Of a DNA stretch of 64,000 nucleotides, positions 43,900 to 57,710 are shown piece by piece (within the stretch, counting starts at the first letter, position 1; the number at the start of each line of letters is the position of its first letter). Position numbers and translations under genes: made by a program. Origin of the DNA: Rhizophagus irregularis (taxonomy: Eukaryota; Glomeromycota; Glomeromycetes; Glomerales; Glomeraceae). The notes under the pieces were generated by a model. The model was not told the origin of the DNA. It searched no databases and saw nothing but the letters and a program-made list of their open reading frames with translations. Location: the NCBI RefSeq assembly GCF_026210795.1, contig NC_089447.1, forward strand, positions 1,304,501 to 1,368,500, written 5' to 3'.

Positions 43900-44219
43900 T
43901 ACAGTCACCTCTCTCTACAACGACCTCAATATAGCGAATAACACGATATAACAGATTTTCAGTGTGGTACTAATTTAAATATGAAAAAAACCCTTGATAT
44001 AACGAAGTTACTATTTATTTACTGTATAACATAGTACAAAGTAAAGTGAGTGAATTGCGTCTTTATTTTGTTAATTTATTGCTCATTTCTATAAAAATTT
44101 AAAAGTGTTAGTAAACGTTCTAACAAAAGAAACCACCCACACATATACATGTCACCACATCCTTTAAATACGTACTAAGTAATAAATCTGTTTCAAGTTT
44201 CTTCTTTTGATATTACCCA

Positions 44220-44482
44220 CCCGCTGAAACTTCTAAAAAAAAAAATAAAAACAGTTAGTAAATTTATAAAAAAAACTAAAAAAATAACTAAGATTCATAC
44301 TCGCACTTATGAATCTTCTTTCCATCTTTGAAAATCTACTTGAATTGAAGTCTATAAAATAAAAAAAGGATGGTTAGTAAACTGTTCCACTTTATTAAAA
44401 AAAATAAAAAAAAATTAAGATTCAATCGTACTAGTACTTACGAATCTTAGTTAATTCTTTTTCCGTCAGAATTCCGCTCAAA
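44220..44482 (-). repeat. Mini-exon-like array, downstream part
   Basis: Minus strand. Exon-like cores of about 40 bp are preceded by TTTATTTT..TAG tracts. The one near 44330-44370 is followed by ATAAGT (a decayed donor) and the one near 44440-44482 by GTAAGTAC. Intervening AT-rich spacers are 80-90 bp. The cores are diverged copies of those at 46639-47160. Confidence 0.65.
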
Positions 44483-45189
44483 TAGAGATGCGATCTGGAT
44501 GAAATTTTACAATCCGTGATCCGCCCGGATCAATCCAGATTATCATAAGATTAAATCTGAATCATATGTGCCAATTTTTGGAATTAGTCTAAATTAAGAT
44601 TTTTATAAAAATTTAATATTTTAGTAAGATTAACATTACACAAATCTAAATTAAATATGTGTTACATATTTACGTAACTCAGATTTAATAAAAAATAATA
44701 AAAATTTTTTTAATCAATATTCAAAAATAACGGTAATAATCACTTCTTTTTCCCCATCACTGCCCATCACTTTTCCATCATTTTTCTATTCACTTTTATT
44801 AAATATGACAAAAAAGTTTATAAGCAAATATAGCAGTTATTTTTAAGTGGTAAGTAAAAGAAAAAACTTAATATTTTATATACATAGATAAGACATATTT
44901 TTTCATAATTTTTAGCTTTAATTTATTGTTTTTTCTTTGTAAAAAATACATGCAAATAAAAAATAATTATGATGTAAAATAGTTGTAAAATGAATAATAA
45001 GATATTCTTTTTTTTCAAAATAACTAATTATATATTTGTTTTTTATTTTTTAAAATTATTTTATTAGATTTATTCTACTAAAATCCTTAAATGGCAAATA
45101 AAATCTTTTAAATAAAGTAAAAGAATTTGGGATTCTCTTATGAAAGCATTTTTTGGTAAGAAATAAAATTTTCAGATCGGACTTTATGC

Positions 45190-45840
45190 AGGTGACAAAA
45201 TCGTGCATTATTATTCCTGGAGATATGCTAACGTCATTATTTTACATTCATTTGAAAGCTGAGAATTTGCTCTATCGTAAGAATCAAAGATCAGGAAAAT
45301 TTGATCACTGGATGAGGCGTAATTAACGATCAAAGTCAAATCAAAATTAAAAATTAAAAATAAATATATTAGACGTAATTATTCACAATCCAGTGATTCA
45401 ATTCATTCGATTTTAGGCTTATTAGATAGACTCAATTTTCTCTTTCAAATGAATATAATTTCATTCGTGTAGCTTGCATCTACAGGTATTTAATAAATTT
45501 TTTTATATCAGATTTTATCAAACTTATAAAATTTTATATTAATAATATAATTGATGATTCCTAAACATCTACATATATTAAACGAATTATTTTAAATTTA
45601 TTTTAAAGATAAAAGTTGGCATCACCTTAGGGAGCAAAGATCATTCAAATTGAATCACTACATGTGAAGTAATTAATGATCAAATTTAGATAAAATTCAA
45701 TAAATATACTGAACGTAATTACTGAGCAACTAGTGATTCAATTCACTTGATTTTAGATTCATTAGATAGATCTCGATTTTCTCTTTCAAATGAATGTAAA
45801 TTTATTTGTATAGCTTATTTCTACGAAGAATTATCAATGA
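45190..45840. repeat. Two diverged direct repeats, about 240 bp
   Basis: 45260-45500 and 45625-45840 share GATCA..TTGAATCAC, GTAATTA, CCAGTGATTCAATTCA and TTTTCTCTTTCAAATGAAT blocks in the same order. No coding frame. Confidence 0.65.
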
Positions 45841-46059
45841 TTTTGTCATGAGAGTTATATTTGATCTTTTAAATTTTAATGATATCTTATATTAAAAAAA
45901 AATTAAAAATTATATAATTAATTAGTTTTTTTTGCATTATCTAGTATAAATTTATTATTCTTATATAAATGATAATTTATATTTGCTTTAATGAAATTAT
46001 TTTTGTGTAAAAAAATTAGATTCCAAGGATCGGCCCATATGAATCCAGATTAACTTCAA

Positions 46060-46545
46060 ATTTTTGGGTATCTCGGCACCCAACAATCGTATAGAGATGC
46101 ACTATAGCTCATTCGAATCGTTACAATGAGACGATTCGAATGAGCTATTGTGCATCTCTGTACGATTGTTGGATGCCGAGATATTCGGCAAACCGTCAAA
46201 AATTGGTAGTATCGTAAATAAAAAATGCTAATTTTTGACGTTTTGCCGAATATCTCGGCATCCAATCATTGTACAGGGGTGCACTGTAGCTCATTCGAAT
46301 CGTTGCAATGAGACGATTCGAATGAGATATTGTGCATCTCTGTACGATCACTGGATGCCAAGATATTCGGCAAAACGTAAAATTTTGCATAATCGTAAAA
46401 TGAAAATGCCAATGTTTGACGTTTTGCCGAATATCTCGGCATCCAGTGATCGTACAGAGATGCACAATAGCTCATTCAAATCGTCTCATTATGACTATTC
46501 GAACGAGCTATTGTGCATCTCTGTACGATCATTGGATGCTGTTTC
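46060..46545. repeat. Three tandem near-perfect hairpins
   Basis: Each unit, roughly 120-130 bp (about 46067-46192, 46247-46375 and 46424-46542), is an inverted repeat of CCGAATATCTCGGCATCCA, then TGTACAGAGATGCAC and ATAGCTCATTCGAATCG, around a short ATGAGACGAT centre. The palindrome explains the similar frames on both strands, which are not genes. Related half-sites are at 7340, 24460, 24890, 25250, 50205 and 61093. Confidence 0.85.
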
Positions 46546-46638
46546 AGATTAAAACGGATATCCTTAATCCATCTGGATGCATCCACTATCCATTCAGATC
46601 GGATGGATTGGCAAATGATCCGAATTTTCGCATCTCTA

Positions 46639-47160
46639 CGCTCAAAACCTATAAGAAAAAATAAATAAAAATGGTCCACTTTATTAAAAAAAGCAAAAAA
46701 AAAACTAAAAAAGATTTGATTCATACTTACGATTTTTAGCACTTTTTCTATCAAAATCCACCTGAAACCTAAAAAAAAATAAAAATAAGATCAAATAACG
46801 AACTGTTAATCACTAATAAAAAAAAGAAACAAAAAAAAGCTAAGTTCATAATACTTACGAATTTTAGCTCTTTTTTAATCAAAATCCATTCTAAAACTAT
46901 AAAAAATAAAATAAATAAGAATAACGGTTAGTAAACTGTTCTACTTTATTAAAAAAAAAAAACAAAAAAAAATTAAGTTTGTAATACCTACGAATAGTTT
47001 TTTTTTATTCTCAAAAGTTCACCAAAACTTATAAAAAAATAAATAAATAAAAACAGTTAGTAAAAAAAAATAAAACACTAAAAAAACTGAACTTCCACTT
47101 ACTTCTCATTCCAGGTATCCATTTCGAAGTCCAGAAAGTCCTCTACAATAAAATAAATAA
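46639..47160 (-). repeat. Mini-exon-like array, upstream part
   Basis: Minus strand, spacing about 110-130 bp: cores at about 47112-47151, 46996-47031, 46861-46898, 46736-46773 and 46639-46649 (continued at 44482). Each is 36-43 bp, preceded by a long T-rich tract ending TAG or AAG. The first four are followed by GTAAGT, GTAGGT, GTAAGT and GTAAGT. Two cores align well (GTGGATTTTGATAGAAAAAG and ATGGATTTTGATTAAAAAAG). Confidence 0.7.
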
Positions 47161-47364
47161 AAAGAACCCAATATTAGTAATAAAAAAAATTGAATAATCG
47201 GTTAATCAGATCAATAAGTCACATGATCTGTATGACTGACATATCTACTATACCGAATAATTCATTATACTATACCGAATAATTCGTTATAGTGTTAACG
47301 AAGTTGCTTATAACAAAAACCTAATCAGCCGGAATGTAGAGTTTGTTATATCGAGGGAGAACTG

Positions 47365-55124: not shown

Positions 55125-57710
55125 TGGTGCGTCTCACCTATAAACCACAAAGTCCGAAATTTCAAAAACGTAGATTTCACGTGACTTAGCGTGATATCAT
55201 GTGACTTCGTCATATGATTACGAATCGAGTTTCAAAACAAATTGCAATCGCGCAGTTTATTCAACTTTATTTAACTCAACTAAAACATAATCTGGAATAC
55301 AACGGTGGGATTTATACTTTTTGGCTGCATATTCAGCCAATTTACCTGTTATTCCATTTCTATATAAATCCATATAACGCCACGCCTTCCTTGCAAATTT
55401 TCTTATCATAATCGTATCGACAGACTCTAAAGCTACAGGAACAACACGTTGCAAGCTTGACCACGAATAGTCACAGTTTTCGCGAGCATATCTTTTCGCT
55501 GCCCCCCAATATCTCTCAATAAAGTTAAGTTCACAATGGAACTTTGGGTAGAAAATGCACAAGTGCCCAGCTTCTAGTATTGCTTCCTCTAACGCACTTT
55601 TTTGTGCCAAAAAATCAGGTTGCAATGAAATAATCCGGCGTGCACAACAATCAATCCGTGTTATATCATCCACCTTATCTTTACACAACTGACAGTCAGC
55701 ATTAAGGCCATTTTTCCATAAGCCACGTTCAATTAAAACTTGTTTCATCCCTTTGGGTTCCCCATTTTCGTTTACCATTGATTGGTACTGATTGTTTAAT
55801 CCAAAAACCGTGTTCCTCATTTTTGGCTGTTTTCCGCCCGGTTTTAAGTTCATTTTACTAGCTACAAGAGCATCATGCCTAAATGCTGCGTGGTTCGAAC
55901 TATTATCAAATGCAAACAATCCAATACAATTAGGAAAAAGAGTTTCGAAAATAGGGATTGCTTTTGTCTTTACTTGATCGATTAGGTGTTCACTTGTCCA
56001 ATATCCTTCTCGATCTTTGCCTGGCTTAAGATAAGTGCGCGCTTCTTGAGGTATGGAAGAGTTTTCTTGATGCTGTTGTGCATTTAATTTAAGACGGCCA
56101 CATTCTTCTGACAAAAATTCGCTAACCATTATCGAACGTCCATTTCCCTTTTTACGCAATGGCAATTCTCCTGTTTTTGTCCATACACCTCGTTTCCCAT
56201 CATTAGAGTAAAATATACACTCATCATGTGTTACAAGGATTATCTCTTTATTATTAGATTTTAACATTGGTGGTATTCGTTCCATAGTTTCACCTTCATA
56301 CTTCGCCATGTACCTTTCATAACTATAAATTTTATCCAGAAATAACTTTCGATATTCAACAACATCAGGACGTTCATGACCATCATAGTATGTACCTTAA
56401 TATAAATAATGTGTGATTGTTTTTTTTGTATAATACTGTATTAACGAATTCTTACCTTGTTTTTGTGATTGAAAGCTATAGCCAAGTACATTTAACCATC
56501 GAGTTGTAGTTGCTTTGGCGATAGTTTTCTTTTTTGTTATTCCAGAATTAATGAGCAATTTTTGCTCAACAAATTCCTTAAACTTCAATGGGGTGGTTGT
56601 TCTGCCTTGAGATCGAATCCATGTGTGACATTTCACTGCTATATCCTCATCATCTATTAATCGTATTGTTTTTTGATGTTTCCCTTGACGACTCATTGGA
56701 AGGTGATTATTCTGAAGCCAAAAATTCGCCCAATATTGAATTGATCTTGCTCTGTTTGGTGCACAATCTATAAAAATCAACTGCGCAGCTTCTTTGCTAG
56801 CTTTCATCTTCCCCTTTCCATTTTCATCTAATCTCTTTAAATACTCATATATTGCGCGTTTTTTATTATATTCAGTTACTGTTAAAATCTTTTGCTGTTC
56901 TCCAAGTTAAGTCTTTAGATTTTTGATTCTTTCATCTATATTGAGTTGATTCTGTTCCTCTTCATCCAAATCATCCAAAACTTCTACAAAATCATCCGGA
57001 ATTGTCTGATTTCTATTCATGAAAGTTGAAATTTTCATGGTTCTTTTTGCAGCTTTTGTAAAGGAACCACTTGGTCCATACTTGTCAAAATATGTTGATT
57101 TTTTTATTTTTCCGGTAAGATATGGTCCACGTTTTTTTTGTTCCAAGTGTGTGTTATCTGACCAAGTCAACTCAAGAGCTTTTTTTTCGTTTAATAAACT
57201 AACTTCATCATCATCCCACCCACTATCATTTTCGTCTCCCCATTCATCCAATTCATCAGATATCCTTGATTTTTTTGTAAACGTTCCATAGTTGTTTCTT
57301 TCTTGCTCTTTAGCTTTGGATTTTTGCTTTGATGGACGAGTCATTGATTAATGTGTGGGAAATTAATTGAAATCGGTAATTTTCATATGAAATTCGCGTA
57401 ACATTAGGTTGGATATATTCTGATCTTGTAACGATATATTCCGATCTATGAAATTCACATGATGATATATCCCCGATCTCAGTCCGAAATTTTCCTTTTT
57501 TCATATAGATCATATAAATTATTCTTGAACTTTCGAACTTAATAGAATTAAATTTTTCTAATAAATCTTAAAAAGTAAACCGTTAGAAATGTTTAGCTTA
57601 TGCTATTATATTATTTTATCGGTTTCAATTTGTATTTTATTACTTAATACCTGACTTATAAAAATTTAAAGTCACATGATATTTTTGTGGTTTATAGGTG
57701 AGACACACCA
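55125..57710 (-). mobile_element. Tc1/mariner-type element, nearly intact
   Basis: Inverted ends TGGTGCGTCTCACCTATAAA / TTTATAGGTGAGACACACCA (about 26 bp with CCACAAA), each bordered by TA (55123-55124, 57711-57712). It carries one two-exon DDE transposase gene. CACGTGA / TCACATGA motifs sit just inside the ends. Confidence 0.8.
55257..57344 (-). pseudogene. DDE transposase with a single nonsense codon
   Basis: Exons 57344-56456 and 56395-55257 with a 60-bp intron (GTAAGA..TTAAG). Together they encode about 675 residues. The N-terminus is acidic and basic (MTRPSKQKSKAK). A helix-turn-helix-like region follows (KTIAKATTTRWLNVLGYSF), then YYDGHERPDVVEYRKLF. The catalytic DDE residues are visible: LVTHDECIFYSNDGK, LFAFDNSSNHAAF and CELNFIERYWGAAKRYAREN. 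The only visible break is TAA at 56907-56909, where CAA (Gln) would fit the context LKT-Q-LGEQQKI. All other codons are open, so this copy is young or recently silenced. Confidence 0.85.

Follow-up and report, generated by a model that had tools for sequence, protein, structure and literature searches.

An array of putative mini-exons in a decayed pogo/Tigger-type element of Rhizophagus irregularis and related arrays in its genome

In the window, the whole 64,000-nucleotide stretch of Rhizophagus irregularis DNA that was analysed, short exon-like cores recur on the minus strand inside a transposon remnant, each set between what look like the ends of spliceosomal introns. This arrangement raises the question of whether the cores form a genuine exon–intron array and, if so, what such an array would do inside a mobile element.

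The mini-exon array of the window

The array lies in a decayed, non-autonomous element at 43902..47364 on the minus strand, with CAGT...ACTG ends and a TA target duplication. The left terminal inverted repeat, beginning CAGTTCTCCCTCGATATAAC, occupies 47337..47364, and the right one, from the reading of the element ends, 43902..43929, both on the minus strand; the left-end and right-end regions were 86% and 89% identical, respectively, to the same ends of a related element, L011. The earlier note had spoken of a mariner-like element. This holds at the level of the Tc1/mariner superfamily with its TA duplication, and terminal inverted repeats starting with CAGT place the element more exactly in the pogo/Tigger type. 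No open reading frame (ORF) of at least 110 aa was found within 43902..47364, and the G+C content of the window was 21–40% in 2-kb steps.

Seven mini-exons were read on the minus strand: mini-exon 1 (40 nt, 47103..47142, donor GTAAGT), mini-exon 2 (36 nt, 46992..47027, acceptor ATAAG, donor GTAGGT), mini-exon 3 (38 nt, 46859..46896, donor GTAAGT, with TTACTAAC upstream at 46934), mini-exon 4 (38 nt, 46731..46768, donor GTAAGT), mini-exon 5 (43 nt in whole, cut by an insertion into 46639..46648 and 44442..44474, donor GTAAGT), mini-exon 6 (41 nt, 44311..44351, donor decayed to ATAAGT), and mini-exon 7 (57 nt, 44176..44232, donor GTACGT). Their lengths modulo three are 1, 0, 2, 2, 1, 2, and 0. 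The other positions of TTACTAAC in the array are 47063, 44380, 44261, and 44114. Much of the first description survived this re-reading of the minus strand. A T-rich tract ending in TAG (AAG once) precedes all seven cores, the donor is exactly GTAAGT in four of seven and a single case each of GTAGGT, ATAAGT, and GTACGT in the rest, and the orientation and order of donor and acceptor are constant throughout. The claimed spacing of 110–130 bp was also recovered, with exon starts 115, 131, 128, and 120 bp apart within 46639-47160; the claimed core size of 36–43 bp failed for the last mini-exon.

The cores resume beyond a later, non-autonomous hAT-like insertion at 44483..46638 (8-bp target duplication TTTGAGCG, ends TAGAGATGCGA), as had been proposed: mini-exon 5 is split across it, and mini-exons 6 and 7 follow. 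No ORF of at least 110 aa was found inside the insertion, which holds a nested 181-bp tandem repeat and long inverted repeats at 46069-46539.

The array was compared with 1000 dinucleotide shuffles at three settings of an intron scanner that combines donor, branch site, T-tract, and acceptor. With the strictest branch site (TACTAAC/T), the array gave four matches, whereas the shuffles averaged 0.02 and never exceeded 2, and the full window gave four matches on the minus strand, all within the array, and none on the plus strand. The looser scan returned four array matches versus 0.27 in the shuffles (five minus and four plus in the full window), and the scan with five of six donor positions returned three versus 0.08 (three minus and one plus). 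Two of the four strict matches are exactly the introns described above (46991-46897 and 44441-44352); the remaining two share a described acceptor but use another, weaker donor. The other described introns were missed because their donors or branch sites had decayed or because they overlap with a match. These results confirmed that the mini-exon array of the window is real and beyond chance.

Related arrays across the genome

A search of the 146.7-Mb assembly (32 contigs) with the window array gave at least 179 matches. Among the best 40 of 290 candidates, which were scored, five were close copies (89–94%) and 28, at 74–79%, covered the left end and the first unit. The end sequence CTCTCGATATAACGAACCCT occurred at 178 genome sites with at most two mismatches, whereas its reversed control occurred at none; the window's own end differs from it at three positions and hence lies outside the 178. 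Among the 100 of these sites that were listed, some were of a visibly different kind (CTCTGG) and 46 were exact. Of the exact sites, 15 were fetched and carried at least one scanned unit each, several of them also recognized by eye; another 19 matched the left end and the first unit in the genome search alone; one (C31:126209) was a 98% end-twin of L011; and at 11 the scanner, the only method applied to them, found no run of introns.

TA flanks were present in the window element and in 14 of 14 other elements for which both ends were found, and family I elements with both ends found measured 899 to 2372 bp. The number of scanned introns per related element ranged from 1 (L021) to 14 (L001), with most units 111–113 bp long, and the L001 array showed 97% matches along its length. 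This variation in number at a nearly fixed unit length bears out the proposal that the exon together with its intron is the duplicating unit. Adjoining this longest array element, at L001:4698-5498, is a 51-bp satellite in about 16 copies that bears no relation to the array.

Full-length relatives were also recovered. At L025 and L026, a 3.5-kb element carries a pogo-type transposase on the strand opposite the array, and in L025 this transposase contains DDE_1 (1.4e-33) and HTH_Tnp_Tc5 (1.4e-17) domains, together with a CENP-B_N match (0.0019) below its cutoff. L039 has the same layout with a 92% identical transposase; on contig C11, a further copy combines a minus-strand array with a 92% plus-strand transposase, the intervening stretch having been read only in part. 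The scanner found no run of introns beside seven transposase matches at 50–75% identity (L040, L041, L042, L044, L045, L046, and the decayed L028, with L040, L041, and L045 also inspected by eye). Because these seven relatives showed no intron run, the array may have been gained within a single branch of the pogo-type family. Upstream of the apparent left end of L043, beside a 60% transposase, three intron-like matches were noted (700-1500, reverse complement), perhaps another decayed run. Elsewhere in the window, the minus strand at 55257-57347 has three long ORFs side by side (379, 169, and 146 aa), which resemble another transposase.

Arrays were found in a second superfamily as well. A hAT element (Dimer_Tnp_hAT, 5e-9) interrupts the C11 copy and carries an array itself, built from a different unit and located downstream of its transposase and on the transposase strand; related arrays gave at least 77 matches (best 40 of 161 candidates scored). 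Further unit types were found at L049, L050, L052, L053, and L054-L058, one of which gave at least 162 genome matches (best 40 of 410 candidates scored). A host-gene origin was tested with two ORFs upstream of the L053 array, and neither had a Pfam match. Related arrays are thus present in dozens of same-ended elements, in a hAT element, and at further loci, and the window element is one fossil within this larger class of intron arrays, a dead pogo/Tigger-type copy with the array in its left arm.

Several neighboring features were observed in passing. At L047:4960-5501 and L050:2500-3000, known arrays are adjoined by additional mini-exon-like runs whose units are of yet other types, and the hAT element in L047 seems to be inserted into such a run. 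Long arrays of another unit type occur at L054, L055, and L056, and L054 and L055 have in common an upstream CT-rich and TATA-like stretch.

Branch-site hairpin and variability within the unit

The array units are mostly about 112 bp long, with exons mostly of 30–43 nt (some of 20–28) and a median intron of about 80 nt. When the best site nearest the acceptor was taken as the branch site, its distance to the acceptor was 30–34 nt in families I, III, V, and Vb and 26–44 nt in family II; a second, acceptor-anchored parse was unreadable for family I and for parts of families II, IV, and VI, and the rows taken from it were those that could be read.

A short inverted repeat encloses the branch site in families I, III, V, and Vb. 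Stems of at least 7 bp were present in 58 of 78 family I introns, 11 of 19 in family III, 13 of 14 in family V, and 18 of 26 in family Vb, compared with 0.6–2.6% for shuffled flanks; among scanned introns they were present in 1 of 32 in the window family (II), 0 of 3 in family IV, and 0 of 3 in family VI. Over L001-L053, stems of at least 7 bp were present in 110 of 183 array introns versus 0 of 72 other intron-like sites (1 of 50 in an earlier, hand-limited background set), and stems of at least 6 bp in 114 of 183 versus 8 of 72; L054-L068 were excluded from these counts, having been chosen via the list for the hairpin pattern. The stem letters differ across families with the pairing kept (AAGAACATT/AATGTTCTT, AAGAAACGT/ACGTTTCTT, and GTAACGTT/AACGTTAC); in the MAFFT alignment, the hairpins of two family groups were moved by one base to line up the branch site. 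Two of the stem forms occurred at 538 and 230 genome sites with at most one mismatch (reversed controls, 0), 100 of each being listed, and 9 of 10 seemingly isolated hairpin sites among those listed had at least two scanned introns within about 1.2 kb. In the type VII introns of L054, L055, and L056, 21 of the 23 donors tested (7/7, 5/7, and 9/9) lie at a second inverted repeat, compared with 15–19% in shuffles.

Relative to shuffles, whole introns showed only mildly more stable folds (z -0.6 to -2.0). The branch-site hairpin was part of the best fold in three of four introns tried, the family V intron being the exception. An Rfam search of 11 loci returned 40 matches at E ≤0.5, all below the gathering scores and none inside array coordinates. 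The structured-RNA product considered in the earlier note is possible, but the structure that is conserved is that of the intron at its branch site.

The variability of the unit was determined in unit matches covering at least 85% of the unit (76, 26, 22, and 17 units of families I, III, V, and Vb, 141 in all), which were gathered by profile similarity independently of the splice motif and from which CpG-affected columns were removed. The hairpin arms (0.015), the splice core (0.020), and the T-tract (0.033) were the least variable parts, followed by the exon (0.057) and the intron between donor and hairpin (0.089). The arms (p=2.7e-5) and the core (p=0.002) were below the donor-to-hairpin intron in the pooled data, and these p-values are indicative only, since the units share descent and pooling overstates their independence. 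In each of the four families, variability was lower in the core than in the remaining intron, and after CpG removal the difference was significant alone only in family III. A candidate reading in which the exons drift fastest was rejected; it was true only with CpG sites included, and without them no significant difference separated the exons from the remainder of the intron.

The window subfamily, in its six copies, showed no extra conservation of the splice sites overall (Fisher p=0.72): variability was 0.112 for donors, 0.083 for AG, 0.057 for the branch site, and 0.082 for other positions, with the AG set defined by a text pattern that includes some AGs other than array acceptors. These six copies look like dead, decaying fossils. 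The genome-wide check proposed at the outset thus had a divided outcome: many further copies exist, and the expectation that GT and AG are more conserved than the spacer agrees with the lower core in families I, III, V, and Vb and fails for the donors and AGs of the window's own six copies. That the splice signals and the hairpin tolerate less change than other parts of the unit hints that splicing, rather than protein coding, is what matters in these arrays.

Possible roles of the arrays and comparison with known systems

The explanation that we regard as somewhat more probable than not is that the array is transcribed, that its introns are spliced out to leave a short, mostly non-coding RNA, and that selection acts on spliceability or on the hairpin introns. 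The major spliceosome would remove each intron, unit-wise duplication would let the array grow and shrink, and selection would preserve the ability to be spliced, or the excised hairpin introns, rather than the message of the exons. Transposon transcripts on which splicing stalls are a source for RNAi in Cryptococcus, and efficient splicing is therefore a plausible benefit to an element. As a guess at its use, engagement of the spliceosome might shield element RNA from the treatment given to aberrant RNA, or might soften the harm of insertion. More tentatively, and with somewhat less confidence than in its opposite, the arrays can be viewed as genome-wide, mobile "splicing satellites," in which a unit of an intron with a hairpin-held branch site and an exon of about 30–40 nt, carried by two or more unrelated superfamilies of DNA transposons and also found elsewhere in the genome, would be selected for splicing into a frame-free RNA.

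The splice signals might instead be idle. A piece of a spliced transcript could have been caught in an element and amplified as a minisatellite, with its inherited signals no longer in use, and the near identity of the L001 array, in which recent copying alone would preserve the signals, is in line with such passive origin, as are the donors and AGs of the window-family copies, which show no extra conservation, and the 11 exact-end sites at which the scanner found no intron run. We nevertheless consider this unlikely, given that the hairpin arms and splice core are 4–6 times less variable than the donor-to-hairpin intron and that unit types with different exons share both the layout and the branch-site hairpin.

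A gene for a repeat protein was also considered, in which the mini-exons encode, or once encoded, a peptide concatemer of 10–14 residues per exon that has since decayed. In micro-exon genes, exons are multiples of three and protein-coding. Exon lengths were counted from gaps of 15–70 nt between scanned introns, and no more than 41 of the 116 exons counted across families were divisible by three, which makes coding unlikely; the counts were 35 of 61 in family I, 0 of 12 in family II, 5 of 11 in family III, 0 of 11 in family V, and 1 of 21 in family Vb. When five arrays were spliced computationally, their longest frames from an ATG measured 22, 28, 41, 61, and 0 codons and did not exceed the 95% level of the shuffles, although that of L047 came near it (61 versus 63 codons). 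The spliced consensus of the window subfamily does contain one frame with a single stop in about 110 codons, which was matched by 0.4% of shuffles and by 1.8% of exon-order permutations with all eight exons, or by 5–10% when subsets of the exons or the window copy were used. Cut by alignment columns, individual copies of the subfamily had 2–5 stops in their best frame (for the window copy, five when cut in this way and one when cut by hand), and the near-open peptide had no Pfam match and only a chance-level match in the PDB. In L001, one frame is free of stops over 136 codons, though 11 of its 13 exons are one 30-nt unit, and the spliced frames of families III, V, and Vb were not outstanding. 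The concatemer of 13-residue repeats suggested in the earlier note is thus weakened by exon lengths that are off frame and by ATG frames within the shuffle range, and is left with one near-open frame in the window subfamily. Protein coding by the arrays is unlikely, past coding in families I and II is possible from these frames, and a decayed repeat-protein gene as the explanation of the arrays appears quite improbable.

Still less probable is that the inverted repeats act at the DNA level, as sites of protein binding or recombination that drive amplification, with the splice-like motifs incidental to them. The repeats are indeed short, near perfect, and regularly spaced, and their two stem forms recur at hundreds of sites with empty reversed controls; such sites would leave unexplained why a donor, a T-tract, and an acceptor lie at similar distances in one orientation, and the stem sequence varies by family with the pairing kept. 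Processing of small RNAs from the excised introns, for which hairpins in short introns and the second inverted repeat at type VII donors could speak, is very improbable, as the stems of only about 9–12 bp are short for small-RNA processing and all Rfam matches in the 11 loci stayed below their gathering scores.

We return to the reading in which the introns are spliced. If the arrays are spliced, they would provide a very large natural set of near-replicate introns in which to study the effects of branch-site hairpins on splicing and the multiplication of exon–intron units, and to ask whether introns help transposons to evade silencing. Unclassified repeats are reported for R. irregularis in the consulted portion of PMC11075540, and the arrays may account for part of them.

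Among titles and abstract openings, a sample with subscription papers mostly outside it, no description of such arrays was found, which does not establish their absence in print. The main text of two papers on R. irregularis transposons (PMC11075540, PMC8647823) contains no word beginning with "intron" or "splic," and that of a paper on fungal introns (PMC9860276) contains no word beginning with "Rhizophagus" or "Glomero." The SP7-like effector genes of arbuscular mycorrhizal fungi, as presented in the excerpts seen of PMC11333574, resemble the arrays in bearing repeats within this fungal group; they are described there with one conserved intron ahead of the first repeat, whereas here an intron occurs in every unit, and a reading of the arrays as SP7-like host effectors was set aside on that account. 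Intron gain by tandem genomic duplication also involves a tandem duplication, but the excerpts of PMC4974935 concern one potato gene, whereas the arrays described here lie in mobile elements and contain as many as 14 scanned introns.

The TA duplication, the CAGT-type ends, and the transposase with HTH_Tnp_Tc5 and DDE_1 domains in a full-length relative are those of pogo/Tigger-type elements; what sets the elements described here apart is that an exon–intron array fills the left arm, opposite the transposase. On the excerpts available, the closest described systems are the symmetrical stwintrons and introner-like elements of fungi (PMC8469720, PMC4457414, PMC9860276), in which, as in the arrays, spliceosomal introns recur in near-identical form. 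The inverted repeats or internal symmetry described for the fungal ones in the part of PMC8469720 consulted have a counterpart here in the stems of the array introns, those of the window family mostly excepted. As far as the same excerpts go, introner-like elements place introns into unrelated genes, whereas here the intron is amplified in tandem together with its exon and carried in DNA transposons.
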